The translations under genes were made by a program, and so were the position numbers. Positions 5,254-57,321 of a stretch of DNA of 64,000 nt are shown piece by piece. This DNA is from Rhizophagus irregularis (taxonomy: Eukaryota > Glomeromycota > Glomeromycetes > Glomerales > Glomeraceae). Positions within the stretch are counted from its first letter, which is position 1. Every line of letters starts with the position of its first letter. The notes under the pieces were generated by a model. It was given only the letters and a program-made list of their open reading frames with translations. It ran no database searches and had not been told where the DNA came from. The DNA is taken from assembly GCF_026210795.1 (NCBI RefSeq), contig NC_089445.1, forward strand, positions 1,922,001 to 1,986,000, given 5' to 3'.

Positions 5254-5374
5254 ACTGTAATTAGCGTTCTGCAAATACCAATGCTAGCATAATTGGCATC
5301 ATACCAAGCATTGCCTAAGATATATATGCCCGAAACTAGGAAGTTTCACACGACGAAACCTGAAATGGTAAAAC

Positions 5375-15345: not shown

Positions 15346-17366
15346 ATGACTACAGACAAGAAAAAGAAAAACAACAAGTCTAACAATGATACTACTTCTA
15401 AACGTCCTGCCTCTAGTTCTCCAGCAGGCAACGTTTCTGGTCAAGGTTCCTCTATATCTGGCCCTTCGAACACTCCACCTTCGACCACCTCCACTAATAA
15501 ACGTACCAGAGTCAGTGCTGAAGACTCTGTCATGGATGTTGATAAACCTCTCACGCCTCCTGGCCCTGTTGAGACAACTTCCGCTGAGATACCTTCTCAA
15601 CCCGATACCTCCTCTCTCGATGCTTCGCAACATGCCCCTACTAACACCAACGATAAAGGCAAAAGCCCTGAAATTACTCCTGCAGTCTCCTTCCCTGAAC
15701 GTGCTGCCTCTCCGGACGCGTCCCAAGCTGCAGTACAATCTCAACCTACACTCTTCTACGCCTCGGCCGCTCCTAATGACGTCGATGGCTTTTGGAATCA
15801 CTTCGCTTCGAACCGCGACGCGTGCGACGCGGTTGATCGACAACTTTCCTTGTTCTCCTCTTATGGTAGTCGTGCCACGTGTAGTGGATCCAACGATTTG
15901 AAGAGGATCATCGTACATTTCCGAAAAAAGGATGATCTTGTCAAAGCCGTAGCTTCCCCTATGGATTCTTTGTTTGGCTTGCATTTCCATGCATATGACC
16001 CCCAGGCTATTAAGGCTGATGAACACGCGCGTACCCTGTGGTTACCGATATCCCCCTTTTTCTATCTGACGCTCTTTTGCGTGGTACCTTTTCTCGTTAC
16101 GGCAATATTACTCGTTGCCATACCCGTTTATCTAAACTTTATCGTACTGCATACATTACTTTTGAATCTACTGGTGCTTTACAGAACCTCGACTCTACCT
16201 GGGGCGTCCTTTGTGGAGGACATTGTTTACGCATTTGCCCCACTACTTTCTCTCCTGACCAACGTGCTGAAAGACGCGCTCATGTTGCTTTACTTGCCGG
16301 TCTCCCGCGTGGCACTATAGCGGTCGATCTTGCTGAAATTGCCGAAGAAATTTCCGCTAAATCTATCAATGTTCCCTTCTCTATGAATTCTTACAATCCC
16401 AAACCTTACGCCTATTGCCATTTTGCCTCGAAACGGCTATGGAAAATGCTAAATCTATTTCACGTGCCCTCAAGAAAGTTGGCCTTACCTGGCACTCTCC
16501 GGATGAAGTCACTTCTCTCTGTCATCGATGTGGTCGCCCTAATTGTAACCCTGATCGATGTGGTTCTTCATCTAGATCTAATCGCCCTCCTCGCCCTTGG
16601 CAATCTAATGATAAATTACGTGCTTTATATAACAAGCATTTACCTCCTTCTCATCCTGCTAAACGACATAACCGTTTTGCCCGCCCTGATAACAATAATG
16701 ATGGACAAAGCCGTACCAATGTTTTCTCGCCTTCGCTCTAAATCCAGACCTAATACCCGACAACAATCTCGTTCTCGCTCTCAACATCGCCCATGGAACC
16801 GCGACAACCTTAATCACAATAATAATAATCAACATCGTCGTATTCCTGATGCAAATGAACTTGATCACTATGCTGATGGCATGGATGTTACATACCCTGC
16901 TCCTCCTACTGTGCTTACTGATTGGAAATCTATTGGTGCTGCTCTTGAAAAAGTAGTTGCAGAATTAGCCCTTCTTACCACACAATTTGCTACCATGAAC
17001 AGCCGCATCACTAATTTGGAATCTGCGATGGCTGCTCGTGCTCCTGTTCCTGGCCCTTTTGTCACTAAACCTCTCTCCTACATCCCTTCCTCTATGCAAG
17101 GATGGGATGATACAGTGAATCGAAATGATAATAATATCCTCGTTGATGTTAATTCTCCTCCTTTGCAATCAACAAGCGGGTTTTCCCCGATTCCTCATTT
17201 TGCTCCCATTCCACCTTCCAACGTCACTCCTTCCTCCCCTATTGATATGGAACAGCGTCTCTCCTCTCTTTCCGATACTGTTGCCTCTTTGGCTGGCTCG
17301 ATTAAAGAAGGAATCCAACAAAACAACCTCATCTTAGCTCGGCAACAAGGCCAAGCTAATCAATAA
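15346..17366 (+). pseudogene. LINE ORF1 (RRM and zinc-knuckle nucleic-acid-binding protein), frameshifted
   Basis: ORF1 proteins of this type coat the element RNA. The reading starts at ATG 15346 with a Ser/Thr/Pro-rich disordered region of ~130 residues. A region resembling RRM folds follows (HARTLW then VTDIPLFLSDALL, RTAYITFES). The frame must shift near 16035, again near 16430, and again near 16710. The middle piece carries a CHRCGRPNCNPDRC knuckle, and the last an Arg/Ser/Asn-rich segment, a helical region and the stop at 17364-17366. Three frame changes make it non-functional as read. The ORF2 frame follows directly. Confidence 0.8.
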
Positions 17367-20300
17367 TTGTTCTCTTTTCCCCCTTCTTTATTACCGATTT
17401 ATCAGTGTGTAATAATGATGGACAACAATAAACATAATTTTTCCCCTCACCCCTCTCCCCTTATTAAATTTGGTCAATTAAATGTTAATGGTTTATGTTC
17501 CCCAGTTCGACAACAACATTTGCTTAATTTTTTTCTCCACTCCTCTTTTGGTGCTTTATCTATTAATGATACGCGTCTTTCCCCTTCAAATGCTAAATTT
17601 ATTTTTAAAAATGAACATTCCCAACATCATTTTAAGTCCTATTGGGCTTGTTCATCTTCTTCTTCTCGCCCTCATGACGGTGTTGGTATTTTGTTACGAA
17701 ATCCCCTTCATAAACATGTTCAAACAATTGATTCTTGGAACGGTCGACTTCTTAAATTAGACTTGTTCTTTCATCAGACAAAAATTTCTATTATTTCTAT
17801 ATATTATCCCCCTTCTGGTTCTGTTCATCAATCTATTTGCAATGATCTTTTTGCCAAACTTCTTTCTTGGCTCGATTATGCCCGAGCTAATAATTATTTT
17901 GTAGTTATTCTTGGCGATTTCAATGCTGATGTTATCGCTCATTCTAATTATTCACATAATCATTTTAAGCTTCTTCGCTTGCTTTCTTCTCGGTTTTTTA
18001 CTGATCATCAAGCTCACTCTACTACAAATGGTCCTGATCCCACTTTCTTTCATGATAATGGATCCTCTAGACTGGATTATATTTGGTCTTCACCTGGTTT
18101 TCCTGCCCCTGGTCTTTTTTCGCAAGTGGTTACTTGCCCGGGTCTCCTTGATCGTCCTTTTACCGATCACAAAGTTCTTACAACTGTTTTTGACTTCAGT
18201 ACTTGTCTGGCTATTTTAGCCAAATCCCGTCTTAAACAAAAGAAAGAAATGCGTACTATTTTTTCTTATACTTCCACTTCAGTTGAACAATGGAATAATT
18301 TTACCACTGAAGTAGATGATTCTCTTGGAGTATATTTAGACAAACAATATCATTCTAATTTTGATTTCTCCTCTCTTTCTCTTGATCGTATGTGGCATGC
18401 ATTGAAAGCTGCCATAATTAGTGCTGCAATTGAAACTTTACCTTTTCGAAAAGTCTCCAACACACACCGACATTCGTACTCTCCTGAATTAACTAAACTT
18501 ATTGCTATTAACAAGTTTTTAGATTGATTTTTATATCACCTTACTACTCGTCGTTCTAATCGGCCTACTCAGATTGCGCAAATGACTGCTGCCTTGCCCT
18601 CCCATCTTGAAAATCTTGCAACCTTACTTCCTGATTATTCAGTTCCTACCTATTCTACAACCCCTGCATCTGTATTTAAATCGTTTTTACGATCACAGAA
18701 GAATTTAGTTTCTGCCTTTTTATCTACTAAATTCGCCCAACACCTTACGGACTCAGTGGAATATTATACTGCACTACGTGACGAACACTTTTCGACCTCG
18801 CTTGGCACCTTTATCGATTCTGCCCTATCAGTAGAAAAACGCTCGATTGTTCTTGACCGTGTTCTGGTCGTTTTGGACTCGACTCCTACATTATTAACGG
18901 ATCCTTCGGATATTAAACAAGCTGCTATTTCTCATTTTCAGTCAATTGTTTCTCCTCCGTTGGTCCGCTATTCTTCCATCACTTCATTTCCCGCCCGATG
19001 GCAACTAGCTTACACTCCTCTTACACACGTGTCTGCTTCACTATATGATCCTGTTTTGGCACCTATTTCGCTACAAGAATGGTCTACTGTGATTTCCTCC
19101 ATGCCAAATAACAAAGCTTCCGGCCCTTCAAAAATCTCTTATGAGATGATTAAACATCTGTCCGGTGAAGCCTTGGATTTCTCTCTTTTACTGGCCAATA
19201 CTTGCCTTTCTCGCGGTGATATTCCTGCTGACTGGCGTGATGCTGTGGTTTATCCTATTCCTAAACCTCACGATTTTGATGCTCAACTTAAGAACACTCG
19301 ACCTATTACTCTTCTGGAAACAGTTCGAAAATGTGTAGTTAAGGTCGTCACGAATCGTCTCTCCAACATTCTTGCTGATAATAAAGTTCTCCAAGGTGGT
19401 AATTTTGCTGGCTTACCTGGTGGTTCTACTGATGTCCCTATCAAAATGCTTGATGCGATTATCCATCAACATAAACATGACTCTACTGATGATCAGGAAC
19501 TATGGATCGTTTCTCAAGATATCTCTAAAGCTTTTGATTCTATGGATTTAAATATGCTTAAATTAGCTTTAGATAGGTTACATATCCCTGCACTTTTAGT
19601 ACGATTTATTTTAAATCTTTTTACACGACGAAATAATAAGATAATTACTTGTCATGGCGATACAGCTGCTTATAGAGTACGTGTTGGTATCGATCAAGGA
19701 GAAATCATTTCCCCTCTTCTTTGGGTTATTTATTTGGATCCCTTACTTACTGTTTTGAATCAAGAAGCACGAGATCCTTTTATTTTAAAATCTTCAGCTC
19801 TTTTAAATTATTCTCCACTTGAATTTGAACAATGTTCTTTACCAGTTTCACATTTAACGTTTATGGATGATTCTACACTTATTGCTTCTTCAAAATCTGG
19901 AATAGAAGATCGTCTTTCTATTACTGCTGAATTTTATACTTTAAATAATGTTCAAGCTAATTCAGCTAAATATGTTCTTCTTTCCTCTTCTTCCCCTTCT
20001 TCAACGATTATTTTTGATCTTACACCTTCCTTTTTAGTCTCTGATTTGTCTCTTTCCCTTTCCTCTTTATCTTTGCATGCTTCCTTTCGCTTTTTAGGCG
20101 TTTGGTTTTCTTTGTCCGTCTCTTCTGATTTTGTTCACAAACAAGTGCGCTCCATGGTTAAAGATATGGCAGCTCTTCTGGGACCAAAGAAATTATTAGC
20201 ACAACATGTGGCCTATCTTTATAATGCTGTCCTTCTTCCGCGATTGGAATTTCGTCTTCAAACTACCCTTTTCTCTGAAAGTACTATTCAATCAATAGTT

Positions 20301-22801
20301 AAACCTATGTTTTCAGTACTTCGTAGAAAAGCTGGACTTGCTGCAACTACTCCATTGGCTTTGTTATTTCTTAAACTTCCTTTTTCGATTCAGAATGCTT
20401 TTTATCGATTTCTTTCTTCCCATATTGCATCTTGGCAAAAAATTTTCATTCATCCTGACTTTAAGGATTTTGCCCTTTATGCTATCTCCTATCTTCAAGG
20501 ATATTTGGGTGCTGAAAGTTGCCCGACTACTATTACCTTAGAACCATGGTCACAGATCGTTTCTTTGCGAACGCACACTTTGTTTAATTCGTTATTATTT
20601 TCTTCGCGTTTAAACATCACGTGGTCTCTTTCCTTCCGGCCTCCGAGGCATGATCTACAACTTGCTTTGCCACTCCGATCTATTCTACCTCATTCCATTT
20701 TTCAATCGAGTTGGAAACTTTGGAAAAACTTGAATATATTTGTGCTCGCTCAGTTGGTTTCTCCTTGTGGACGTTATCTTATGAACTGGCCTGACCTTCG
20801 TTATCTTGGCATCGTTGGTCGTAAAGGACGGATCCCTAATTGGTTTAATTTTATCAATAATAATTTTCTCTCTTCTTCTTCTTCTACTTTACTTTTATCT
20901 TCATATTTTATTAATTCTTCTTTTACTTTAGCTTCCCTTGTTTATTAGATCATACTGTTAAAGATTATTCTTTTTATCCTCAATGGGCTATTAATCTTGA
21001 CTCTGCTACTCAAACTTTATCTGTTGGTCGTGTGTGTATCACTTATAAGAAACAAAACTCGGCTATTATGTCTCATTGGCTTCCTGTATCTAGCTCGGCT
21101 GATGAACGATCCTATGACCCTTGTCCCGGTTGTGCTCTTAACATTCCCGCCTTATCCATGAAATCTGCCATCAGACAACGCTGTAATAGCGAGAAATGTT
21201 TTTTTAATGTAACTTTATCGGATACTGTGGGCTATCCTACCAGAAACGCTAAAGTTTTCGCGGCTTATCTTCCCATTACTCTATCTACTTCATGGAGTTA
21301 TGCGACTTCCTTGGCTCTTGTTCATTTTTCGAACGCGTCTCCCGCTCTTTCTCCTCTCTTTAAGGATAGAATCGACAGAATTGAAGACACTATCTTACCA
21401 CTTTCTGTGCAATCTTTGTACACAGATGGTTCGTTCCATCCTGCTAATGATTCTTCGCCCTCTTCCATGACTTCTGCTTGGATTGCTTTTGATGATGTTG
21501 GACTTGTTCTGGAATCTTCTTCCATGCATCTCCCTTCTTACTTTCCTTCAGCTTTGCGTTCCGAAATTTCTGCTGTACTTTTAGGATTGAACGCCCTTTC
21601 TTGTGATTCATCAATCTCTATTCATACTGATTGTAGTCAATTAATTTCACTGTGGACACGGTTTGTTGATGCTCCCTTCTCACCGAAGTTGCTCCGAGAA
21701 CCTAATCATCTCCTTTGGCTTTCTATTCGACAACTTATCATGGATCGTAATCTTCATGTCGATTTGATTAAAGTCCCTGCTCATGGTGATGATATCTACA
21801 ATATACAAGCGGATTCTTTGGCAAAAGATGCTCATTCGTCTTTACAACCCACTGCTATACCTTCAGCATTTTGTTATGCTCCATGCTTGTTGACTTTTAA
21901 CTCCCTGCCTATTGACGTGAATATTCGACATTTTCTCCGCTCTATTGCAGATGCTCGTGCTCTTTTATCTTTCTGTTCACTAGCACGTTTTACTGCTCTT
22001 GGTTTTCCTTCACTTTTTGATTGGGCTGGTATATACTTTTGCCTTTCACAAATTAAAGGTTTCGCTTCACATAGGAATGGTCGTCCTGAATTTTGGATCT
22101 TCCGCATTAAACTTCTCTTGGATATGTTGCCTACCTTAACTACTCTTCAACAACGTAAACCTTACTTATATTCTCCTGACTGGCTCTGTCCGCAGTGTAA
22201 TTCTGCTCCTGAAGATTTGAATCATCTTTGGACTTGTCCTTATATTTTACCGGAATTAAATCCCTGTTTAACGCACCGGTCTGAAGTCATTAAATTTAGA
22301 GATTCTTGTTTATCTTCTTTCCTATCCTTGAAATCTTTGGATAATTCCTTTCATACCGATTTCTTTGCTTTGGATTGCTGGAACTATGAAGCTCCTTCTT
22401 CATCTTGTCTTTGGCTTACTCGAGGATTGTTGCCTGCGCATTTAACGGCATTTTTGAATCAACACTTTCCTCTCTCTGTTATATACAAGATTATTTCTCC
22501 CCTTCTTAATGACTTCCAAATCGAATTATATGGTGAAATTTGGCTGTGTCGGAATGTTCTTTTCCATGCTTGGGAAGAGTCGCAGGGTATCTCGGCTGCT
22601 TCCAAATTACGTGGCCCATCTATAAATTCTTTTCCTATTACTACTTCTCCTAAACAACTCAACTCTTCTTTGGCGTCAGTTTCTCAGGATTCCTGGATTT
22701 CTTGGATATCCTCTTCTATAATTCAGGGTGGATCTTGGATCTCGCACTTGGATTTTCTGCGCCGCTTAACAGTTCAACCTCTTAGGATTTCTTTCTGGTA
22801 A
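17367..22801 (+). pseudogene. LINE ORF2 (endonuclease-RT-RNase H polyprotein), broken
   Basis: Order of domains: an EEP endonuclease (FGQLNVNGL, SINDTRL with Asp where Glu is usual, ILGDFNAD, SRLDYIW, TDHK); a reverse transcriptase (NNKASGPS, NFAGLPGGSTD, VSQDISKAFDS, GIDQGEIISPLLW, and FMDD in place of the usual F/YADD); a ribonuclease H (LYTDGS, RSEISAV, IHTDCSQ, IQADSLAKDA); and a C-terminal Cys/His group (CPQCNSAPEDLNHLWTC). A TGA at 18525-18527 interrupts the frame between endonuclease and RT. The frame shifts near 20930, so RNase H lies in another frame (21032-22801). With these two lesions removed it would be about 1,800 residues. Confidence 0.9.
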
Positions 22802-31800: not shown

Positions 31801-32107
31801 AATTTTTTCCTGAAAATGTACACAGTTTTTCAAATGATTTTTGATCTGTGGTTTTTTATTAGTAAAGGTATTTTTTAAAAGTTCATTATTTTCTAACTTT
31901 TCAACACATGCAATACATACTGCATAATTATTGCCACTGGTCGAAATAAAAACTTTCGGTCATGTGACAAATCGGCTGATCTGTCACACATTTTGGCCAA
32001 ATTTCGGAAATTATTAAAAATTGGCCAAATTTCGACATATATGATTTATGGCCGATTTATTGAATTATTTAATCAAACGTTACACATTACACGTTACGCA
32101 TATTAAA

Positions 32108-32300
32108 AGTTTAAAAAAGGATCATCTTATACATCCTTTTTTAAACTTTTTTAATTTTTTTCTTCCCCTCCCTTTTCCTTTCCTTCGTTCCTCTTCCCTG
32201 TTTCCCCTTCTTTCCCTTTCCCTTCCTTCGTTCTCCTTTCCCTTCCTTCACTTTTCCTTCCTTTTCCTTCCTCCTTTCACTTTTTTTACTTTTTTTTATA
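32108..32300 (+). other. Hairpin and polypyrimidine leader of array 1
   Basis: An inverted repeat (AGTTTAAAAAAGGAT and its partner, 32108-32147) is followed by about 135 nt almost wholly of C and T (32156-32290), then TTTTTTTATAG. Array 2 has the same hairpin-plus-polypyrimidine leader in its own orientation. Confidence 0.7.
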
Positions 32301-34735
32301 GGTTCGGCTTTCGGGTGGGCTTCTGAAGTATAGAAAAACCAAGTTTCGTAAGTACAAAACTTGGTTTATTTTTTTTTATTTTTTAATTTAATATGAACAG
32401 TTACTAACTGTTCTTTTTTTTACTTTTTTTTTAGGTTCGGCCGTTCAGATGGGCTTCCGAAGTATAGAAACCCCAAAGATTCATAAGTACGAATTCATTG
32501 GAGTTTTTTTTTATATTTTTAATATGAACAGTTAATACTAACTGTTCTTTTTTATTTTTTTTAGATTCGGCCATTCGGGTGGGCTTCCGAAGTATGGAAA
32601 AACCAAGTTTCGTAAGTTCAAAACTTGGTTTATTTTTTTTTATTTTTTAATTTAGTATGAACGGTTACTAACCATTCTTTTTTTATTTTTTTTAGATTCG
32701 GCCGTTCCGGTGGGCTTCCGAAGTATAGAAAAACCAAGTTTCGTAAGTACGAAACTTGGTTTATTTTTTTTTATTTTTTAATTTAATATGAACGGTTACT
32801 AACCATTCTTTATTATTTTTTACTTTTTTTTTAAGTTCGGCCGTTCAGATGGGTTTCTGAAATATAGAAACCCCAAAGATTTATAAGTACGAATTCTTTG
32901 GAGTTTTTTTTATATTTTTAATATGAACGGTTAATACTAACCGTTCTTTATTATTTTTTACTTTTTTTTAGGTTCGGCCGTTCAGATGGGTTTCCGAAGT
33001 ATAGAAACCCCAAAGATTCGTAAGTATGAATTCTTTGGAGTTTTTTTTTATATTTTTAATATGAACGGTTAATACTAACCGTTCTTTATTATTTTTTTTT
33101 AGATGTGGCCATTCGGGTGGGCTTCCGAAGTATGGAAAAACCAAGTTTCGTAAGTTCGAAACTTAGTTATTTTTTTTTTGTTTATTTTTAATATTATAAA
33201 CGGTCATTAATAACTGTTCTTTACTTTTTTTTAGGATCGGATGTTCTGAAGAACGGGAAAATTCCAAGATTCGTAAGAATCTTGGATTTTTTTTTATTTT
33301 TTTTAAAAAAAATATTACGAACGGTTACTAATAACCGTTCTTTTACTTTTTATAGGTTCGGGTGGATATCCGTATTCCGAAGAACTGGAAAATTTCAAAG
33401 ATTTGTAAGAATCTTAGATTTTTTTTTTATTTTTTTAAAAAAATATTACGAACGGTTACTAATAACCGTTCTTTTCTATTTTTTAGGATCTGGTGGGCTT
33501 CTGAAGAAAGGAAAACCAAGAAACCAAAATTTGTAAGTAAGTACGAATCTTGGTTTAATTTTTTTTGTTTTTTTTTTAATATATGAATGGTTTTAACCGT
33601 TCTTTACTTTTTTTTTAGGATCTGGCGAGCTTCTGAAAAATGAAAACCCAAAGATTCGTAAGTACGAGTACGAATCTTTAATTTTTTATTTATTTATTAT
33701 TATTACAAATGGTTTACTAACCATTCTTTCTTTTTTTTATAGGTTCAGGTGGGCTTCCGACGAACGAAAACCCAAAGATAAAGATTCGTAAGTACGAATC
33801 TTTACTTTTTTTTCTTTTTTCAAAGCTTTCTTTTAAAAAATTTTTTTTTTATTAATTAATTTATTTTCTTTATTTGGGTAGGTTTCAACTTCAGTTGGAT
33901 AGGTAATTTTCATTTCAAACTTTTTTTTTAAAAAAAAAACAATTTATTTAGTTTTTTTCTATTTTGTAGGTTTTGACTTCAGTTTATGGGTGTTTGATAG
34001 GTGAGTTTAGTTTCGAAACTTTGTTTTCTTTTCAAAACTTTAACAAAAAATATTAATTTTATTTATTTATTTTGTAATATCGGTTGTGATATCCTTGGGC
34101 TTTGGATATGTAAATTTCGAAATTTCGCCTTCTTTCGAAACTTTAAAATTTTATTTATTTTTTTATTTTAGGCCAAAGAAATAAAATTATTCGTTTCTCA
34201 TGAAAAAAAATTGCTAAATTTGACCCGGCCGCCCGGAAAAAAAATTTATTTTCAAAAAAAAATTTAGCCGATTCCTAGAAGATGATTGGTTGATTTAATA
34301 AATTTTTTGCGAGGGCTTAGGGTGGAAAAAAAATTATTTTTTTATGATTATGATTGGTCAAAACCAAAATCACATGACCAAATAAAATAAATTTTTTTAT
34401 CTTTTCGCAACATTTACATGACCCGCCCGGTCATGAGAAACGAATAAATTTATTTACTTGGCCTTATAGGTATCAGCTGTGATATCTCCTTAGCGAGCTT
34501 TAGATCGGTAAAGTTTCGTTTTCTTTTCGAAACTGTTTTAAGAAAAAACTAATTCTTTCTTTCTTTTTTTTGTAGGTTTTCACTTTAAACTTTTATTGAA
34601 CAGATTGTGTAAGTTTCATATTTCAAAACGAATTTTTTTTTATTGAAGAAATTTTAACTAATCATTTTTTCTTTTTTTTTGTAGGTTTCTTAACGAATTC
34701 TAGATTTTTTAATGTAGATGGTAAATGCTTCAGAA
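32301..34735 (+). repeat. Array 1: tandem intron/micro-exon-like units
   Basis: About 12 units of ~100-135 bp (32302-33810) are followed by at least five more diverged ones to about 34735. Each unit has a poly-T tract ending in TAG, an exon-like segment of 38-49 nt (for example 32302-32347, 32565-32611), and GTAAGT (ATAAGT in two units). That site is enclosed in a hairpin such as CCAAGTTTC-GTAAGTAC-GAAACTTGG. A second hairpin, GAACGGTTACTAACCGTTC, presents TACTAAC, the fungal branch-site consensus, followed by T-rich DNA and the next TAG. Exon-like segments have no common reading frame that stays open across all units. This could be a multi-intron non-coding transcript, a decayed micro-exon gene, or a satellite that mimics introns. 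Confidence 0.7.
34171..34463. mobile_element. PIF/Harbinger-like MITE inside array 1
   Basis: 293 bp with TIRs built on GGCCAAAGAAATAAAATTA and TTCGTTTCTCATGA, flanked by TTA on both sides (34168-34170, 34464-34466), typical of PIF/Harbinger. It sits just before a TAG acceptor-like site and leaves that site intact through the duplicated TTA. Confidence 0.75.
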
Positions 34736-35415: not shown

Positions 35416-38400
35416 CTACTCTCTACCATTTGGACATCTTTTCTGATAATGACCTGGTTTTCCACAAAGACCGCATTTTCGTTGTGATCTTGACGTTATA
35501 TCACCATCATTACTTTGTTGAATATTAGTTTGACTTGTAATGCTTACGTATCACACTCCTTCCTGAAATCTCTATAGCACTTTTTATTCTTTTTTTACTT
35601 GGAGCTCCTTAAGGTTGCTTGCCGAAACCTAGGGGTTTAGGCAAGATGGCGTTTCGCCAAAAAGCGAAATTCTGCTGAAACTATATTAAAGTTATATTAA
35701 AAAACTGGCGAAACTTTGGAGAAAGGCAAAACTGCCGAAACTTATTATAAATGCCGAAACTGCCGAAACTCTGCCGAAACTATAATAAATCTATAGTAAA
35801 ATTTTGACGAAACTAATCGTAGGATTTTGAAGAGGTTTAGACAAGCAACCTTAGAGCTCCTCGAATTTTAGTAACATATGGATTTGTAGTTTGATTAATC
35901 AAATTCTCCTGTAAGGAAACAATTTGACTATTACTTTCCACAACTACATTAATAATTTTTGATTCAATACCATCACCATCACGACTCCTTTGCTTATTCA
36001 AAATGAAATCTTTTAATAATTTTACTAATTCAGTATCACTTCCAGTTTCTAATGCAATATTAATTGCAGTTTTAGCAGTTGAAAATGCTACGCCAAAACG
36101 ATTTCTTTGAGGAATAATTCTCTGAGCATTTTCTTTATGACAAGATCCTTGAAGTTGTCTTAGACTTTGAAGAGTAAAATCTACTGTTCGTGATGTTGTA
36201 TTAACTTCAGTAGATGACTCTAATGCTGTAAGTACTGGTGAATTATCAAGAATATCATCTAATTTCATTAAAATTTCATCTTTATACCATCTGATAGGTA
36301 TAATACTAATATGGAATCTTGCAGTACTTGAATAAAGCATTACTCGCCAAAAGTGATGGCAAATAATTCCTTTTGTAATAGATTCTATACACGTACAAAT
36401 ATGAGTCCCATCACTAAAAAGAGCCGCCAGATTTTCTTTACTAGAAATACCTCCTATTCTAATAATTCTCCATACTTCAATAATATTTGACGTATCTATA
36501 CCATCAAGTATAGCCTTCAATGTTATTTGTGGTTCATCTACCACTTCTTCTATGAAATTATCATCAATGGTTTCAGCTTGTAAATTCTATAACAAAAATT
36601 TATGTTAAACTCTATCTCAACTTATTAACAAACTAATTCAACGTGTTATTAAATTACCTCAAATAAGTATGATGTTAACTGTTTTTCATATGTAAAAGAT
36701 TGTGAAATTTGATATCGTTGTAAAGATAATATAAAAGGTGATAAAAATTTCACAATAATTGCATCAACACTTGAAAAAAATTGAGATGAAAGATGTGGTA
36801 ATCCAATTGGTGTATATTTCGCCTTAATATCTGTTAATTGACAGTACTTAAACTCCTCCTGATGTCTTTTATCAATTGTTTCTGCAATATCACAAAGAGT
36901 ACTTGCTGAATTTAAAGACCTTTTAATAATACCATTAAATGATTCTACACTTTGGGTACTTTGTATACCACCATTAAACTGGAATGGCATATAAGCTTTA
37001 GCCCAACTGATTCTATTACCATATAATGCCCCTAAGCATATAAACTGCACCACACTCTGAAATTCATTTATCATAAATGCCCAACGTTGCTCAAATAATT
37101 CTATGCTTAGTACGTTTCTACATGAATAAAAAGCCTTACTGAAAGCATGAAATCTTAATCCTAATTTTGATTTAAGATTCTTAATTATATTTTGCCAAAT
37201 ATGAAATAAACAATAAAAATGTGGCGTTGTAGGAAAAATTTGAGAAGCTGCATTAATTAATCCTGGCTCTGAATCTGTCCAAAATGCTTTTGGCGCAATA
37301 TTATCAGTAGCTTTCATTAAACATTGCAAAATCCATGTGTATGTAGATGCCATTTCGTCTTCCACTAAGGTGCATTTGCTATATTTCGAAATCGTTCATA
37401 GTTGTCTTTTACTATTAACACACTCAAATACATATTGTATTTATTGGTCTTACAAGTATTATCGTTTAATACTACATCAGAAAATCGTTGATATAATTCT
37501 TGTTGAGAGGGAGACATCCAAAAGATGCCTGATAAACGACATTCATTACCAGAATGTCTAATATAAATCTTCAAACGTGGGTCTTGAATCATTTTTTCTA
37601 AAAGTACATTAAGAAATAAAACTGAGTCCAGTTTTTCATCTCTATTACTTTGACGCAATTTATAAATTGCATTATAAACGTCTTGCTTGTGAAATACATG
37701 TTCTGGATACTTTTTTTTAAGTATCTCTAATTGTGTAATTGGCGCAACCTTACAATCTGAAAAAAACTTTAAATCTTGAATCATTTCACTATCAAGACGT
37801 CTATATCTAGCAATAATATGAGATATTTGTGCAGGATTTACCTCATGATTATGCACATCTTTTAATGTTGTGCACCCTATTTGATGTGCAGATTTAGGAA
37901 ATGTAAAGTTAACATGCCATTCACAATTGGTTTTAATCGTACCATGTAACCGATGTAATTTTTGATCCATGAATTTTCTAGGTTCATAATTACCACTTGA
38001 TGAACAACGAAATGATTTACGTCTGATAATAGTTGAATCATTAGGATCTTTATCATTACGGAAAATTTGATATCCAAAACCACGTTCTAAGCAATATTGA
38101 TGCATAAATGTATCAACTAATAACCAATCATCAAAAGAATCTCCTACAGCCAAATTATATTGATAATTACTATTACCAAAAGATGGTTCTAAAGGTAACG
38201 AAGTTTCTATATCTGTAAAATTATCATCTGAAGTTAAAAGTGGTTCAACAGGTGATACAAATGGTAATACAGGTGATACAGATAGTGGCTCAGAAAGTTC
38301 CAAAGATGATGGCAAAAAGTTTATATTAAAAGGTTCGGAATATAGTGAAAGGTTTATATTGGTAAAATTATCATTAAAAGGTTCAGAATATGTTGAAATA

Positions 38401-38459
38401 AAAGCACTTGTCTCATAATTATTATTATGATAATCAGAACAAAAAGCATTAAATTCCAT
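35416..38459 (-). pseudogene. MULE transposase (FAR1-like DNA-binding, DDE, SWIM, zinc knuckle), nearly intact
   Basis: The ATG at 38459 opens a Ser/Pro/Asn-rich N-terminus. A FAR1/WRKY-GCM1-like DNA-binding domain follows (GFGYQIFRNDKDPND, RKSFRCSSSG, CEWHVNF, KDVHNHEVN; about residues 125-220). The DDE core has LNDNTCKTNKYNMYL, then a 1-nt frameshift near 37365, then AFWTDSEPGLINAASQIFP and FHIWQNI. A short intron lies at about 36652-36586. The next exon gives a SWIM finger (HICTCIESITKGIICHHF). The C-terminus is split by the 244-bp MITE, after which TKIRG continues as APSKKRIKS, with a further frameshift before a CGLCGKPGHYQKRC zinc knuckle and TAG at 35416. Few lesions: a recent arrival. 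Confidence 0.85.
35610..35853. mobile_element. 244-bp hAT-type MITE, copy A (in MULE transposase)
   Basis: TIRs TAAGGTTGCTTG...CAAGCAACCTTA with a perfect 8-bp duplication GAGCTCCT (35602-35609, 35854-35861). It is almost identical to copies B and C. Removing it restores the transposase frame. Confidence 0.95.
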
Positions 38460-39773: not shown

Positions 39774-40642
39774 TAGAGATGCAATCCGGATGAAATTTTA
39801 CAATCCGTGATCTGCACGGATCAATCCGGATTATCATAGGATTAAATCTGGATAATCCGGATTAACTTCAAATTTTTGGGTATCTCGGCATCCAATGATT
39901 ATATAGAGATGCACTATAGCTCGTTCGAATCGTTGCATTGAGACAATTCGAATGAGCTATAGTACATCTCTGTACGATCACTGGATGCCGAGATAATTGG
40001 CAAAATGTGAAACATCAGCATTTTTATTTACGATCATGCAAAATTTTACGTTTTGCCGAATATCTCGGCATCTAGTGATCGTACAGAGATGCACAAAAGC
40101 TCATTCGAATCGTCTCAATGCAACAATTCGAATGAGCTATTGTGCATCCCTGTACGATCGTTGGATGCCGAGATATTCGGCAAACCGCCAAAAATCAGTA
40201 GTATCGTAAATAAAAAATGCCGATTTTTGACGTTTTGCTGAATATCTCGGCATCCAACGATCGTACAGGGATGCACTATAGCTCATTCGATTCGTTGCAT
40301 TGAGACGGTTTGAATGAGCTATAGTACATCTCTGTACGATCACTGGATGCCGAGATATTCGGCAAAGCGTAAAATTTTGCATAATCGTAAAATGAAATTG
40401 CTAATGTTTGACATTTTGCCGAATATCTCGGCATCCAGTGATCGTACAGAGATGCACAATAGCTCATTCAAATCGTCTCATTACGACGATTCGAATGAGC
40501 TATTGTGCATCTCTGTACGATCATTGGATGCTGTTTCGAATTAAAACGGATATCCTTAATCCATCCAGATGCATCCATTATCTGTTCGGATCGGATGGAT
40601 TGGCGGATGATCCGAATTTTCAGATTTCAGATCGCATCTCTA
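39774..40642. mobile_element. 869-bp hAT-type non-autonomous element in DIRS gag
   Basis: The left end TAGAGATGCAATC and right end (inverse TAGAGATGCGATC) are flanked by a perfect 8-bp duplication CTCAATAC (39766-39773, 40643-40650). It has no coding sequence, and its interior is the palindrome array. Excision with one CTCAATAC rejoins the gag frame. Confidence 0.93.
39880..40531. repeat. Four ~125-bp near-perfect palindromes, ~180-bp period
   Basis: Palindromes at about 39882-40010, 40062-40185, 40242-40365 and 40422-40531 each read TATCTCGGCATCC, AGTGATCGTACAGAGATGCAC, AGCTCATTCGAATCGT and back. They are separated by ~50-nt spacers holding AAAATG...CATTTT words. All overlapping short reading frames here are palindrome artefacts. 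Confidence 0.88.
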
Positions 40643-43899: not shown

Positions 43900-45440
43900 A
43901 AAGTATAGTTTGAGCATTTTGGTTAAAGTAAATCTTATTCTTTTAATTAAAAGTAGTTCAGTAAGTTTAAAACTGTTAAGATATTAACCTTCATAAAAGT
44001 ACAGTTAATATTTTTGAAAGTATAAGACTAGTTTTCTCCCTATGTGATTTAACCCAAGTAACATCACCTACATAAAATTAAATCATGTAGATTAGTTAAG
44101 GTTAGAGTTAGGGTTAGGGATTGGGTTAGGGGATTAAGATTAGGGTTAGGATTAGGGTTAGGATTAGGATTATGGTTAGGGGTTAGAATTAGGATAAGGT
44201 TTGGGTTCGCTGGAGTTATTAAATTTGATGATGTCATTTTAAAAATAAAATTTCCAGTTATAAAAGTTATAAATTTTATTTTTTAGTACAGGTGATGTCA
44301 CCTAGGTGACATCTCCCAGAGAGAAAGTTAGCAAAATTCTTTTTGGAATTATTTACATTTTTTATATAATACAGTAGTATTAAATTACAAATTTTTTTAC
44401 CTTCAGAACGTATTTTGAGATCTTTAGCCAAAGTAAATCAACTTCTTATATTAATTGTAAGTTGTTTGGCAGGTTAAAATCTACTTGGATATTAATTTTC
44501 ACGAAGGTACAATTAATACTTAATGAGTTATTCACAATTTTCACAATGGTACTCATTTACAAATTTTATTTTTTTCTGTTTTATCATTTCAGAGCGTATT
44601 TTGAGCACTTCAGTCAAAGTAAATCGACTGCTTTTATTAATTGAAAGTTGTTCAGCAGGTCAAAATCTACTTGGATATTAATTTTTACGAAGGTACAGTT
44701 AATACTTGATGTGTTATTCATGATTTTCATAATGGTACTCATTTACGAATTTTATTTTTTCTATTTTGTCACTTCAGAGCATATTTTAAGCACTTTAGCC
44801 AAAGTAAATCGACTTCTTATATTAATTGAAAGTTATTCAGCAGGTCAAAATCTACTTGAATATTAATTTTTACAGATGTACAGTCAATAGATAATATGTT
44901 ATTCACGATTTTCATAATAGTACTCATTCACGAATTTTATTTTTTTGTGTTTTGACACTTTGAGCACTTTATCCAAAATAAACCAACTTCTTATATTAAT
45001 TGAAAGTTGTTTAGCATGTCAAAATCTACTTGAATATTAATTTTCATGAAGGTAGTACAGTTAATACTTGATGAGTTATTTACGATTTTTACAATGGTAC
45101 TCATTCACGAATTTTATTTTTTTTCATTTTATCACTTCAGAGCGTATTTTGAGCACTTTAGCCAAAGCAAATCGACTTCTTATATTAATTGAAAGTTGTT
45201 CAGCATGTCAAAATCTACTTGAATATTAATTTTTACGAAGATACAGTTAATACTTGATGAGTTATTCACAATTTTCGCAATGGTACTCATTTACAAATTT
45301 TATTTTTTTTATTTTGTCATTTCAGAGCATATTTTGAGCACTTTAGCCAAAGCAAATTGACTTCATTTATTAATTTGAAAATTGTTCAGCAGCTTAGAAT
45401 CTACTTGAATATTTATTTTAATGAAGGTACAGTTAATATT
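43900..45440. repeat. ~183-bp tandem repeats, about seven copies
   Basis: Each copy has T-rich DNA ending in TTTCAG, then AGCGTATTTTGAGCACTT, AAAGTAAATCGACTTC, TGAAAGTTGTTCAGCAGGTC, AAAATCTACTTGGATATTAA, and AAGGTACAGTTAATACTTGA. Repeat anchors lie near 43915, 44408, 44590, 44775, 44957, 45136 and 45320. The first two copies are separated by the MITE at 44027-44332. Confidence 0.8.
44027..44332. mobile_element. MITE carrying telomere-like repeats
   Basis: Imperfect ~45-bp inverted ends (CTAGTTTTCTCCC... and inverse CTAACTTTCTCTC..., both with ACATCACCT) enclose a ~110-bp run of TTAGGG and near variants at about 44098-44210. The right end holds the perfect 20-bp palindrome GATGTCACCTAGGTGACATC. 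It is inserted in the 183-bp array. Confidence 0.65.
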
Positions 45441-45900
45441 TGTGGAATTATTAATTTTTTATAATTGTGCGTATTACATTGAATTACAAGTAAATTTATA
45501 TTCTTAAATGTATTTTGTTTAAAATTTAATTATTTAAGATTATTTTTTTATTTAATATTGCTTAATAAAATATTTTTTAAAATTTAATTCAATATTACAA
45601 TATAATTTTTTATAAAAATATATATTTCATAATGTATATACAATTTTTTTGTATAGTGAAAAAACTGAAAAATGTAGTTAAGAATTGGTAATACAGCTGT
45701 AAAAAGTCACAAATCAGACAAATATAGCTAAAATCAGCAATCCAATTTGAATATGCAATTTAAAAATTGGCATATCCAATTTTTGTCAATTCGTACTAAA
45801 AAATCAGCTACAAAAAGCTACAAATCAGACAAATATAGCCAAAAATTGGTTATCTGATTTTTTTGCCAATTTTTATTTATTTGACGTAAGGTTTTCTACA

Positions 45901-48129
45901 CTTTAAAACATCAAACAATACTAGTATCCACTAATATATACTATCCAAAAACTCACTGATGTAAAATCACAATTATTAAAAATTCGCAAGAATTTTTGTT
46001 AATACTGTTTAATTTTTAAGTTCAAAGTCTGATTGATAATACTAAATTCAAAACTTAATTATAAATCATTTTTATAAATTAGTATTAAGATTTTAATTTA
46101 AAAATTAAGCAGTATCAAGGAAAATTCTCATGAATTTTTCTTAATACTGCTTAATTCTAATTTAACTAATTTAGTATTAAGGTTTTAATTTAAAAATTAA
46201 GCAGTATCAAGGAAAATTCTCACGAATTTTTCTTAATACTGCTTAATTCTAATTTAACTAATTTAATATTAAGACTTTAATTTAAAAATTAAGCAGTATT
46301 AAGGAAAATTTTTGCGAATTTTTCTTAATACTACTTAATTCTAATTTAACTAATTTAGTAGTATTAAGGCTTTAGTTTAAAAATTAAGCAGTATCAAGGA
46401 AAATTCTTGTGAACTTTTCTTAATACTGCTTATATTCGCCAATTTGTGAAATTAGCCAAAATTAAGATTTTCATAAAGATTTGCACATTTTAACAAGAAT
46501 TATGTTTCACAAGCTTAAATTATATGTGTTACATAATCAGATAATCTAAATTTATCAAAAAATAAAAAAAAAATTTTTAATGTTTATTTAAAAATAACAA
46601 TGGCAACTACTTTCTTTTTCAATTACTTTTCAATCATTTTTCAATCAGATTTTATTAGGTAACTTAGAAAAGTTTATAGGCATATATAGCAGGTTTTTTT
46701 TAATCAGTAATTAAGAAAACAAATATTAATAATTTATATTAATAAGAAAAATCTTTTTTCATTTATTTTTAATTTTAGTTCCTTCTTTTTTTTAGTAAAA
46801 ATATACAAAATAAAAATGTAAGTTATGCTTTAGAGTTTTTGAAATATTTTTTTTTGTTTTTTACTATACTGATTTTATTCTACTTGTTAATTACTTTTTA
46901 AAATTGATTTTATTAATTTATTCGATTTAAAACAGAAATAGCAAATAAAACCTTGTTAAGTAAAGTAAAAAGAGCTCAATAATACCTGTAAAGATCATCT
47001 TTTGGTAAGAATTATAATTTTAAAAATTTTTGTGTCAGAGTTTTATTCAATTAACAAAATCGTTAATATCTCAGCATATATATATGCTAAACACATATAT
47101 TTATATTCATATGAAATCCCAGAACCTAAACTACCTGAACAAAAAAAAATCATTCAAATTGAATAACTAAATGTGAAGATATTAATGATCAAAGTCAAAA
47201 GTTAAAAATAAATATATTGAACGTAATTATTCAGCAACTTGTGATTCAATTTATGCGATATTTGGTTTATAGATAGCTCTTGATTACTTCTTTCTAATGA
47301 ATATAAATTCATTCGTCTAGCATACATACACGTTAAGTTATTCAATATTTTGTCATAATAATTATATTTAAATTTTTTAATTTTAATGATATTATTAAAA
47401 AAATCAAAAAATAATATAATCAAATCAATTTTATTTATGTCAGCTGGTGTGAATCTATCATTTTCATGTAACTTGTATTTGCATTTGCTTAATAAAGTTA
47501 GTTTTTTGAATATAAAAACTTAATTCCATAAATCAGTCCATATGTTAATTCTAATTTAACTATTAAGCAGTATTAAGGAAAATTTTTGTGAATTTTTCTT
47601 AATACTGTTTAATTCTAATTTAACTAATTTAATATTAAGGCTTTAATTTAAAAATTAAGCAGTATCAAAGAAAATTCTCACAAATTTTTCTTAATTCTAA
47701 TTTAGCTAATTTAGTATTAAGACTTTAATTTAAAAATTAAGCAGTATTAAAAAAAATTTTTACAAATTTTCTTATTAAAAAAAAGAACTTTTAAATTACT
47801 AATTAAACTTTAAAAACAATCTGTATGATTTAAATTTTAAAAAAATACTTCTGCTTTTTGATTTTTACATTTCTATATTTCATTAACCAATTAAAATTCA
47901 GCTGATCGCTGATTACATGCATTAATAGTATGTTATTGTTTATTTTTTGTTTATTTTTTCAAAAATATTCTTTTCTCATCTTTTTTTTAGAAAAAAAAAG
48001 ACAATAAAAATGAATACCAAAATTATTTTAACATATAATAATAAAAATTAAATAAAAAACTTATTTTGATAATATATAATATATATATTTGTACTAAACT
48101 AATAATTATACAAAAAGTGATACGCACGT
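45901..48129. repeat. Palindromic ~115-bp tandem repeats in two blocks, AT-rich spacer between
   Basis: Blocks at about 45985-46440 and 47545-47780 repeat TTAAGCAGTATCAAGGAAAA and its inverse, each unit being a foldable palindrome. About 1.1 kb of other AT-rich DNA separates the blocks, suggesting an insertion, though no boundaries are clear. No gene is seen. Confidence 0.65.
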
Positions 48130-48373: not shown

Positions 48374-49149
48374 ACGCACGTATATCAATTAACAATTACT
48401 TTTACTAATATCTCTTTGGAATTGTAATGGTGAATTTTAACAATATTAATTAAACAACTATATGTACACCTTTTTATGTTTTTATTTTTATATTAATATT
48501 ATATGTTAATATATATTAATTATATTTTTTTTTTACTTTTATGTATTTTATTTAATTTTTTTAATATATTACTAACATTACTACTATCGTTTTATTACTT
48601 TTTTTATATCTAACTAATATATTAATAATATTACTACTTTACTAAAAATGGCCAATTTTTTGAAATATTTTTATAGATCTAGATACAATGGCTTTCAAAA
48701 TAATTGTGCAATTATTTTGTAAAATTTTTAAAATATATCAAGATATATTTGAGGTACTTTACTGGACAGGGTAATTTTTTCAAGATATCATATAATGCTT
48801 TTATGATATCATTAAATATACTTAAAACTCGTATTTTAATAATGTCATAAAAACATTTTATATAATAAAAAATAATCCAAAAAGCATGTTAAACCCCATT
48901 TCTAATGCTTACTAAGACATCATAAAAAAACGGCATTATAATTATGTTCTCAAAACCATTTTATGATATTTTTAAAATATTGTCAAAACACTTTACTAAC
49001 ATTTAAAATATTAATTATAAAATGTATTATGCAATTTATTATTAAGAATATTATAATATACAATAATGTATTATAAAAGTAAATATTAATCTATAAATAT
49101 TTCATTGTAATTAATGTTAAGCTTAAACCATACTAACACCACACCTGCC

Positions 49150-50756
49150 ATCAACTCTTCTGATAAAAATTCTCTTTGATTATAATCCACAGATACTTTG
49201 AGGTCTAGATTTGAGTCTAAAAGAGAAAAAATGAAACTTTAGTAATCATTTCATTATAAAACAATTTAAAGAAAAACAAAGAAAAAACTCACCTAAATCA
49301 GTGTCCAAATAAACTGAAAAACTAACCACCTAAAAAGAAAGAAAAAAAAGAACTATTAATAACAGTTCGTTAAATTATATAAAATGTGGGAGAAAACTGA
49401 AATTAGAAAACTTACGCGTCCAAAAAGATCCAAAGAGATCTGATGAGCAAATAAATCCCATATCAAAAGTAACTCTCACAGCCGTCTAAACAAAAGAAAT
49501 GAACATTAGAGAACATTTTATTAAAGAAATTAAATTTGAAAAAGGAAATATTCCAATTCCTCTTACCGAAATCTGAAATTCAAAATCCATGTGTTCACCG
49601 AAAATGAAATTCTGTAAAGAGGTTCCAACTAGCCACCTAAAAAAAGAAACAAAATAACGAAATCATAAGTAAAGTTTCGTTAAAATACAAAATTCATGTT
49701 ATAAACTTACCAAAATCTAACATGTCTAAAAACTATTGAATTGGATTGAGTTTTGGGTTGTTACGTGAGAATATCCTTGAATTCATCCATTATTATCAAG
49801 GGTTGAGGGAAATTATTCAAAGAACTGATCACTTAAAAAAAAGGAAAAAAATAACGAAATGTACAATAAGTAAAGTTTCGTTAAATATGAAATCTAAGAT
49901 ATTATAAACATACCAAATCTAAGATCTGTCGCCTAAAAAAAAAAGAAAATAACGAACATCAGTAACGTTTCATTAAAATAAAAAAATTTAAAGAAAGTAT
50001 TGTAAAATTACCAAAATGCTACACGTAAAAGAAATCCACAAGAATCGCCTAAAAAAAGACTTACAAAAAAGAAAATAAACATTCAGTTAATTAGAATGTT
50101 TCTTAAAGAAAAAAAAGAAAAAATGGAAGTTTCGTGATGAAACATACGAAACTTACCATTTTCTGAATTACTAAATTCCTAGAAACGGATCTTACAAAGA
50201 AGAAAGGAAACATTAGTAAACGTTTTCTAATAAAAAAAAATTTTTCTAAATAAATATACTTACTTTACGAAACAAATATCCCAAACCTACAAAAAAAAAG
50301 AAAGCGTTAGCAAACGTTTCCAATAAAAAAAATTAAAAAATAAATTCAAGTTTTATAACACTACAAAACTCATCATTTCAAAACTTCTAAATTCAACTTT
50401 CCGACCTACAAAAAATTAAAAGAAACGTTAGCTAATGTTTTTTAATAAAAAAATTAATAAAAATTAATTTAAAAGTTTTGAAGCAAAACTCTTCAAAACT
50501 TACAATTTCCAAAATCCCGCTGAAAGTCCTACAAAAAAAATATAGGAAATGTTAGTTATGTTTCCTAAAAAAAAAAAATTTTAATATAAAGTTTCAAAGC
50601 AAAAGCTTCGAAGCTTACCATTTCCAAAATCTGAAGTTAAAGGCCAGCTAGATGTCTAAAAATAATATAGGAAGCGTTAGAAACACTTTCCTAAAATTAA
50701 AAAAAAAATTTTAAAGTTTTGAAGCAAAACGCTTCGAAACTTACCATTTTGTTTTT
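49150..50756 (-). repeat. Array 2: intron/micro-exon-like units, minus strand
   Basis: On the minus strand about a dozen units follow one another. Exon-like pieces are about 19-120 nt, each preceded by a T-rich tract and TAG (or AAG) and followed by GTAAGT, GTGAGT or GTATGT. Downstream of the donor is a hairpin (for example GTTTCGAAGC, loop, GCTTCAAAAC). Before the acceptor a second hairpin, such as GGAAACATAACTAACATTTCC, presents CTAAC. Examples: donor GTAAGT at 50744-50739, exon ending GATTTTGGAAATG near 50622. Sequence identity to array 1 is low, but the order of parts is the same. Confidence 0.65.
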
Positions 50757-50952
50757 TTGAAAAATTCTGGTGAGAAAGGGAAAGGGAAAGTGGAAGTGCA
50801 AAGGAAAGGAGAAGGGGAAGGGGAAAAGAATAGGAGTGAGGGAAGGGGAAGGGTGAAAGAAAGGAGAAGAAGAGAGGAGGGAAAGGTGGAAGTAAAAGCC
50901 GTAAGAAAAAAAATTAAGCTTTTTGCTAAAAAAAGCTTAATTTTTTTTTCGC
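50757..50952 (-). other. Hairpin and polypyrimidine leader of array 2
   Basis: On the minus strand a perfect hairpin (AAATTAAGCTTTTT arms, about 50907-50948) is followed by ~150 nt that are nearly all C and T (polypurine on the plus strand, about 50770-50900), then the first donor. It mirrors the leader of array 1. Confidence 0.7.
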
Positions 50953-51744
50953 TATACTACAGCATGCGTAGTGGTAATTATTAATTTGATATTACGTGAT
51001 ACACATGATACATAAATTAATATAAATAGAAGGCTTTTTCCCAGAAAATTTTTTTATATCTTTTTTTTAGATGTATATATATCTCATATACACATATATA
51101 TATATCTATTAATTTTAATATTTTATGAAAAGGCCCCTTCTGAAACAGGTAAAGGCTAATTAATCCTATAGGGGGAGAGACATTGCAATTATTGCTACTC
51201 CTTCCACCTGTTTATAGTAAGTAAGGTTTAGTAATAAATTAAAATTTATCATTTATGTTTATAATAATATTATAAGTACATAATTATTAACAGCATGTTA
51301 GAAGCATTTAAAAATATTCTATAAATAGCTAATTTTACTTGCATTTAAAATAATTTTAAAAGTTTAATTGTAAAAAAATTTTCCAATATTTTAAAAATAT
51401 CACACTCTTAACAATAATTTTAAAGCATTATGAGAGGTTAAAATGTGCTTTAAGAACATTTTTATGATATTTTAAAAAAATTGGCTTGCCCAGTAAAGTA
51501 TTTTGAGATTAAAATATTAAAATAATATCAAAGTTAATTATATTATAATAATAAAATAATAACAAAAATATTAAAAAATTATTGTGATATTATTTTGAGT
51601 TATTTTTATAGACCTAGATACAATATAATTATAAAATAATAATAAAAATATAATAAAAACATTTTAATGTATTAAATGTATTTTTGTAGTATTTTAAAAT
51701 TATTACAAAATCATTTCAAGAAATTGGCCATTTTTAGTAAAGTA

Positions 51745-56381: not shown

Positions 56382-57321
56382 ATGAAAATTTTAGCTAAAT
56401 TTATTTTACCCTTTGCAGTATTTACTGCTCTTGTCAGTTCTTCTCCTCTACCACAAGAACCTCCCGCTCCCGGTCCTGCCCTTCCTTCTGGTGGAGAGAA
56501 AAAAATTGTTGTAGTAGGACCAGGTCCGGGTCCTTGGTCTGTTGGCTCTGAACAAGTTGCTACTTGGTGGTCTACAGGATTTACTTCAGATGGTTTGTAA
56601 AATAAAAGAAAATTTTTATATTTTTTATCTTCATCTTATATTATATTTCTTAAATATTTTGATATTATCATTCTTTAGATCCAATAACTGTCACTACTCA
56701 TGAGGAAAGTGGTACCACACCAATCTTTAGCGCAGATGTACGTAATGCTTTTAAAATCAATTTGCCTTAAAAAATTCATTTAAACATTAATAAAATTTTT
56801 GTTCACAAAAAAATTAGTCTACTCTTAATAAGGGAAGCACACAAATACCAATCGACGATAAATATACACCTGGAACTAATTATGTAACTGAAGTCAGTCT
56901 TAAATCAGATCCTTCGATTAAAGGTATTGGCCCAGCCTTCACAGTTACAGGGGGAGGTGGTGGTGGCGTACCTAAAGCAGCACCGGGGCCACCACCTCCA
57001 CCTGGCGGTCCATCAGGTGGTCCTCCACCACCTGATTCTGCTGGTGGTAAAGAACCTGAACCAAGCGGTAAAGGTCCTGAACCAAGCGGTAAAGAACCTG
57101 AACCAAGCGGTAAAGGTCCTGAACCAAGCGGTAAAGAACCTGAACCAAGCGGTAAAGGTCCTGAACCAAGCGGTAAAGAACCTGAACCAAGCGGTAAAGG
57201 TCCTGAACCAAGCGGTAAAGAACCTGAACCAAGCGGTAAAGAACCTGAAGTTCCCGGTGGTCCTCCACCACCGCCTGATGCTGGTGGTCCCCCACCACCT
57301 GATTCACCCAAAGCTAAATAG
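56382..57321 (+). CDS. Secreted Kre9/KNH-like cell-wall protein with PEPSGK repeats
   Basis: Three exons, 56382-56592, 56679-56737 and 56818-57321, join in frame to give 257 residues. The N-terminus MKILAKFILPFAVFTALVSS is a clear signal peptide. After a short Pro-rich linker, residues ~42-130 (WSVGSEQVATWWSTGFTSDD, PITVTTHEESG, PGTNYVTEVSLKSDPSIKG, FTVTGGG) match the pattern of the N-terminal Ser-Thr-rich/Kre9-KNH domain of fungal wall proteins. The rest is Gly/Pro-rich, with about ten PEPSGKE/PEPSGKG repeats alternating almost strictly, then PPPPP blocks and PKAK. There is no C-terminal hydrophobic GPI signal. It is likely secreted to the wall or interface; the role is inferred. The apparent ORFs on the other strand are repeat artefacts. 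Confidence 0.85.
57047..57251 (+). repeat. 21-bp coding minisatellite (PEPSGK)
   Basis: About ten copies of a 21-bp unit alternate between GAACCTGAACCAAGCGGTAA and GGTCCTGAACCAAGCGGTAA forms. Copy number is likely to vary between strains. Confidence 0.9.

Follow-up and report, generated by a model that had tools for sequence, protein, structure and literature searches.

The closest described relatives of the element reported here are non-autonomous derivatives of CACTA/EnSpm (CMC) transposons. They share with it CACTG terminal repeats, 3-bp duplications, and tnp2 (PF02992), the latter in a longer element whose ends are the same. The difference lies in the body, which here consists of consecutive intron units with hairpins and, to our knowledge, has no described counterpart. 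Transposons with internal tandem repeats exist among non-autonomous elements and are similar in carrying tandem repeats inside such an element, but we know of none whose units bear full splice signals. Schistosome micro-exon genes contain many very short exons, keep their frame, and encode proteins. The exons described below are likewise very short, but no frame is kept through them.

Introners, as described in the available part of PMC9860276, are also non-autonomous transposon-linked DNA with spliceosomal intron signals. They insert as introns in many genes, whereas here 12–20 tandem introns lie inside one element. The SNORD115/116 host gene, whose tandem introns number 29 and 48, gives a non-coding transcript of tandem exon–intron repeats, which is also the plan proposed here (PMC11608373, in the portion available). 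It differs from the present locus, where the units are ~130 bp and mobile, and where no snoRNA or other Rfam family exceeds its threshold in the window. In Rhizophagus irregularis, CMC and Plavaka families occur together with many unclassified transposons, which make up two-thirds of the total, and intron arrays are not mentioned in the available part of that account (PMC11075540). A search of open-licence papers found no account of transposons made of intron arrays. The array described below is real and repeated, and represents an unusual build within a known transposon class.

The window, which is the whole stretch of 64,000 nucleotides of R. irregularis DNA that was analysed, contains a tandem array of exon-like and intron-like units, designated array 1. 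The features of this region are listed with their window positions.

31935–31962, + strand: left terminal inverted repeat CACTGGTCGAAATAAAAACTTTCGGTCA; the homology of copies begins at 31935.
32105–32150, + strand: long palindrome AAAAGTTTAAAAAAGGAT ... ATCCTTTTTTAAACTTTT, upstream of array 1, from the sequence.
32160–32282, + strand: C/T-rich tract; such a tract also precedes array 2 and occurs in family D.
32302–33881, + strand: array 1 proper, 12 exon/intron units, from direct reading and donor–branch–acceptor parsing.
32348–32434, 32483–32564 (ATAAGT), 32612–32695, and 32743–32835, + strand: introns 1–4 of array 1.
32883–32971 (ATAAGT), 33020–33102, 33150–33234, and 33273–33355, + strand: introns 5–8 of array 1.
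33405–33486, 33533–33618, 33658–33742, and 33788–33881, + strand: introns 9–12 of array 1.
33882–34170, + strand: diverged intron-like units, from sequence, parsing, and comparison with copy L011.
34171–34464 (approximate), no strand assigned: later insertion with inverted-repeat ends; L011 represents the empty site, with a 3-base flank overlap.
34465–34735, + strand: diverged intron-like units, for example the intron at 34609–34684, common with L011 up to 34722.

Each unit spans ~130 bp. The exon-like segments are 38–49 nt long, with the ATAAGT junctions placed as in an earlier, sequence-only reading of this DNA, and have a composition of 0.33 A, 0.25 G, and 0.23 T. The intron-like segments are 82–94 nt long, have a T content of 0.55, and are sequentially composed of a donor, a branch motif, a T-tract, and AG. 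Of the 15 exact TACTAAC motifs in the window, seven fall inside array 1. The remaining five units carry TACTAAT (two units), TAATAAC, TTTTAAC, and TATTAAT. The units thus have the GT–AG ends, branch motif, T-tract, and workable spacing of U2-type introns, with ATAAGT in two window units. At 32883, the unit parser favoured a GTAC four bases beyond ATAAGT.

The sequence-only reading had described about 12 close tandem copies and at least five diverged ones. Direct reading and parsing bear out 12 close units at 32302–33881 and diverged units up to ~34735, which are interrupted by the insertion at ~34171–34464; L011, the closest copy of the window element, is without this insertion. The three core splice signals that it described, in their order and spacing, are real, and elements whose sequences differ widely follow the same plan. 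The two ATAAGT variants that it reported are located at 32483 and 32883. Its junction coordinates were close, but the second junction pair is 32611/32696 and the first exon starts at 32302.

A splice-model scan of the + strand of the window gave 19 matches, 15 of them within 32348–34684, with one cluster of five. The − strand gave 15 matches, 11 of which lie in a second array (array 2) at 49217–50744; both numbers include overlapping alternatives. The strict cluster rule picked up five units in array 1 and no unit in array 2. Twenty first-order Markov sequences of 64 kb each yielded a mean of 2.8 matches per strand, a maximum of seven, and no cluster of four or more. Array 1 exceeds chance.

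The splice signals of array 1 are also stronger than those of host introns. The splice score has a median of 16.2 and a minimum of 14.0 in array 1 (n = 12), a median of 15.0 and a minimum of 9.3 in array 2 (n = 12), and a median of 11.0 and a maximum of 12.0 in 14 introns of host chaperonin genes (PF00118). The host control comprises 16 introns from five loci, of which the 14 that are 60 nt or longer were scored; their boundaries are frame-consistent choices of our own rather than annotation, and minus-strand chaperonin genes contributed no introns. Units of family A score 16.7, but were preselected above 13. Family B is only host-like, with a median of 10.0 over text-pattern picks from three near-identical copies, and some of its units begin with GC. 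Some family D introns score just 10.5–12.8. In the unit column model, built from 13 elements with 203 of 210 rows kept and seven short rows dropped, the consensus frequencies are G 0.92, T 1.00, A 0.99, A 0.97, and G 0.93 at the donor, and A 0.95 and G 0.94 at the acceptor.

A query with the region retrieved many dispersed copies from the genome (146.7 Mb, 32 contigs), with homology often beginning at window position 31935; 40 of the 633 candidates were scored, which makes the result a lower bound. The left terminal repeat of the window element begins with CACTGGTC at 31935. The left end of twelve retrieved copies is CACTGGTCGAAAT or a near form, and 10 of the 12 have the right end GACCAGTG or a near form. 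Ends of the form CACTGGTC...GACCAGTG are present in most retrieved copies, the exceptions being CATTGG in L010 and TACTGG in L012. A recognisable right end was not found in L003, L011, or the window copy. The left flank of L003, near 2000, is itself array sequence, as if the element had inserted in the exon-like part of another array. Nine of the ten two-ended copies, all except L005, are flanked by identical 3-bp sequences (ATT, ATA, TTG, CAA, AGA, GTA, TGA, TAC, and TAT). Identical flanks are found in 10 of 13 when the longer L013, L014, and L015 are added. The ten two-ended elements measure 2,700–3,410 bp and contain 16–21 unit matches each, the last match being partial in several. Genome-wide, the left and right end patterns have 101 and 100 matches, respectively, with up to three mismatches and 0 in the control, sister families included. 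L001 is sequentially composed of a terminal repeat, a palindrome, a C/T-rich tract, the array, a last exon-like piece with AATAAA, and a terminal repeat.

L013, an element 8.5 kb long, shares its ends with the array 1 carriers and has TAT on both flanks. One of its open reading frames encodes a piece of PF02992 (tnp2) transposase (E 8.2e-11, 41.9 bits, curated cut-off 28.6). A second gene, on the strand opposite the transposase, has coiled-coil-like matches that are all sub-threshold. Diverged intron-like units lie downstream of the second gene on the same strand; they were identified mostly by eye, and the model finds one. The presence of tnp2 in this same-end element identifies the carriers as CACTA/EnSpm-type. 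Array 1 is the body of a non-autonomous CACTA/EnSpm (CMC) DNA transposon: terminal repeats starting with CACTR, 3-bp duplications, and tnp2 in a same-end element are all found among its relatives. L014 was considered as an autonomous element and rejected, its ~4.5-kb interior being another element with TTAA on both sides. This insert in the array, at about 1467–5930 in the oriented copy, has GGGACAGATCG ends and open frames in several pieces.

The splice plan described in the sequence-only reading holds, and its setting is the main body of a transposon with ends. A free satellite is rejected by the discrete ends and the target duplications of the relatives, and a small cargo by the array making up most of a 2.7–3.4 kb transposon. 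A genome search with the hairpin motif gave 580 matches against one in the control; the motif is near-palindromic, and the number is hence not a count of units.

The same plan recurs behind other ends. One such element is present in the window.

48757–51498, − strand: array 2 element, same plan, 12 parsed introns, with strong matches between 50744 and 49217.

The array 2 element has the terminal repeat CTTTACTGG with TA on both sides, is inserted into an abundant short inverted-repeat element, and carries a palindrome at the place corresponding to 32105–32150 of the array 1 element. A near copy on contig C17 is split by a large insertion. Family B (L016–L018) shares its terminal repeats in part with the array 1 carriers and has the same plan with a different unit sequence. 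CACTGG was rejected as the outer left end of family B, as the 100 bp to its left are the same in L016–L018 and partly in L021. A third sister, L020, has GGA on both sides and strong intron-like units. Family D (L044–L046) has CATCAGGAAGT ends, with TA on both sides in all three retrieved copies, which are 93–97% identical in long alignments. Two of its copies have 13 and 14 parsed introns, the C/T leader ends in a donor, and the units are recognised by the family A model. The family D end pattern has 13 genome matches and 0 in the control; TA does not precede CATC in every one of these matches, and the duplication is therefore not fixed. L034 and L036–L041 look like family D, and at L042 (C30:6900-8300) a family D-like array is interrupted by an inserted element with a CTTTACTGG end. 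Two kinds of ends thus enclose related units, and a third kind encloses look-alikes, one of which lies in the window.

The window also contains several features of other kinds. LINE-like frames with endonuclease, reverse transcriptase, and RNase H domains lie at 16038–22801 on the + strand. Two adjoining frames at 36649–38459 on the − strand contain a MULE transposase domain and, slightly under its cut-off, a FAR1-like match. Long-unit tandem repeats are present at 39881–40531, 44402–45442, and 46075–46437 (181, 186, and 92 bp, respectively), with inverted repeats in the consensus units of 181 and 92 bp. A degenerate GTTAGG repeat run at 44095–44186 resembles an interstitial telomere tract. 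A 21/42-bp tandem repeat at 57046–57249, 98% alike at 42 bp, possibly encodes a short repeat peptide.

Most units contain two potential hairpins, exemplified in array 1 by the following.

32337–32366, + strand: 5′ splice-site hairpin AACCAAGTTTC / GTAAGTACAAAACTTGGTT, with the exon end paired with the intron start, from the sequence.
32395–32413, + strand: branch-point hairpin GAACAGTTACTAACTGTTC, from the sequence.

In 122 of 198 family A units, the last six exon bases show perfect complementarity to a stretch close to where the intron begins, in 90 of the 122 at offsets (loops) of 8 or 4 nt from the donor. The same complementarity is present in 5 of 12 array 1 units and in 15 of 34 family D introns, in the latter mostly at offsets of 12–21, and is absent from all 16 host introns and all 12 array 2 units. 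The branch motif lies in the loop of GAACGGTTA...TAACCGTTC. The stem scores at the 5′ site are 11.5 in family A, 10.2 in the window array, 7.0 in family B, 5.5 in array 2, and 4.2 in host introns; those at the branch are 8.0, 7.5, 13.5, 4.8, and 4.0, respectively. Shuffled sequences score 3.5–5.0, and host introns equal the shuffles. The hairpins of array 2 (fractions 0.167 and 0.279) and the 5′ stem of family B (0.154) are within the shuffle range.

Watson–Crick pairings in the branch stem number 1089, compared with 1060 (sd 5.7) when the arms are dealt out, a difference to which the relatedness of copies can contribute. The counts cover 204 of 210 units, with six left out for incomplete arms. 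G-U pairs are not in excess (52 versus 80 A-C), and there is thus no sign of RNA-level selection after insertion. RNAalifold on 40 units, drawn from 115 references in an alignment that shifts the 5′ hairpin, returned the branch hairpin only; two of the eight pairs in this hairpin show two-sided changes. Source elements could maintain the hairpins as RNA structures, or they could be maintained as palindromes in DNA, and the comparison of G-U with A-C does not favour RNA.

A role at the DNA level would have the palindromic units bound by the transposase or a partner protein, the splice-like motifs being incidental or by-products. The subterminal repeats of En/Spm are bound in this way, and non-autonomous elements retain mainly the sequence required in cis. 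The two palindromes in most units and the intermediates unbiased towards RNA are consistent with such a role. We nevertheless consider it unlikely. GTAAG, the branch motif, and the T-tract with AG are strand-specific and kept although the palindrome sequences differ between arrays, and one binding protein would not predict a splice plan combined with differing palindromes. In addition, the units occupy nearly the whole element rather than its ends alone.

The copies show signs of decay. Column 29, at the junction, is G in 92% and A in 8% of 197 units, and ATAAGT is found because the CpG spanning the junction decays (TTC/G to TTC/A). The idea that splice positions mutate more slowly than neighbouring bases holds in part. 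G is more frequent in the splice G columns (0.92, 0.93, and 0.94) than in the median of the remaining 20 G columns (about 0.78), but values of 0.92 or more are also found in four non-splice G columns, and the junction CpG is not clearly protected. The latter has changed to TG in 14% and to CA in 8% of units, compared with 27/19, 43/29, 13/12, and 10/15 at other CpGs; by eye, over 203 of 210 rows, its decay is not clearly different. The CpG pattern fits copies decaying neutrally after insertion. The best match of a unit is in another element in 181 of 194 cases, indicating that arrays are copied whole. Spliced retrocopies were rejected, as nothing credible was found with two junction patterns. 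The first gave three chance-like matches at three mismatches against 122 in the reversed control, the latter necessarily derived from a different repeat, and the second gave 0 matches and 0 controls.

These data bear on whether the arrays are inert relics, that is, an old transcript with many introns, picked up by a transposon, expanded by unequal exchange, and no longer spliced or useful. The C-to-T and G-to-A decay without clear protection of the splice junctions and the copying of whole arrays agree with this explanation. Family D, whose copies are mutually close and have strong signals in most parsed introns, and the recurrence of arrays behind three kinds of ends argue against it, and we regard a relic, like a DNA-level role, as having a rather low probability.

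A micro-exon gene whose spliced exons encode a repetitive peptide looked likely on base shuffles. The spliced chains of L001, L002, and L008 contain open stretches of 151, 187, and 154 aa, and openness reached 0/300 shuffles in three of seven copies and fractions of 0.003 and 0.023 in two more. Stop trinucleotides in the exon-like parts of the 13 elements, over all frames, have a frequency of 0.0258, compared with 0.0632 expected from composition. This reading was rejected after a random-phase control, in which the open stretches were not clearly longer in any of eight copies (fractions 0.094–0.920). The exon-like lengths are mixed modulo 3 (remainders 2, 0, and 1 in 112, 85, and 54 of 251), stops recur in some unit types as judged by eye, and no reading frame through the exons is kept across copies. 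A protein product is accordingly improbable. Searches for structured RNA found no Rfam family over its gathering score and no snoRNA in the window, and in L001, L013, and L016 only four weak matches, which fell well short of their gathering scores and did not include a snoRNA.

It is least probable of all that the arrays are an introner reservoir whose units leave to seed introns in host genes: the units are self-contained intron-like pieces within a mobile element, but in a small sample of ten hairpin-motif places all ten lay among several unit matches and none was isolated.

We lean, with moderate confidence, towards a CACTA/EnSpm-type transposon with a spliced, non-coding, many-intron transcript, in which the intron chain is kept for shielding or transcription. 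This reading builds on the transposon ends and the duplications beside them, the kinship with a transposase, the strong splice signals, the hairpins, and the recurrence in several families described above. The whole element would jump as one unit, probably mobilised by the tnp2-type transposase of related longer elements. RNA polymerase II would transcribe 12–20 short exons and U2-type introns after a C/T leader, to which the tract at 32160–32282 probably corresponds. The 5′ splice site would be held at or in the hairpin that the exon end forms with the intron start, and the loop of the second hairpin would present the branch point. The transcript would then be spliced, and splicing factors on the nascent RNA may protect the element against RNA-based silencing or sustain its transcription. 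Splicing itself appears to be what is kept, because the sequence, the frame, and the letters of the hairpins change while the splice plan stays. More tentatively, the arrays may represent a transposon-borne splicing module, present behind at least three end types and made of consecutive strong introns whose splice sites are presented by hairpins, in which splicing rather than any product aids escape from silencing or transcription.

Shielding from RNA silencing by introns is plausible by analogy. According to the available part of PMC5554785, nuclear RNA interference is restricted by introns in C. elegans, and work that it cites extends this to plants. The same source describes the opposite effect in Cryptococcus, where unspliced introns trigger RNA interference.

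If the arrays are spliced, they would constitute a group of transposons with introns as their main substance. Both the protection of mobile elements from RNA silencing by introns and the presentation of splice sites by RNA hairpins would then become testable. Within each element, some 12–20 related introns in graded decay form a natural series. The arrays may also explain part of the unclassified repeats that PMC11075540 reports in R. irregularis.
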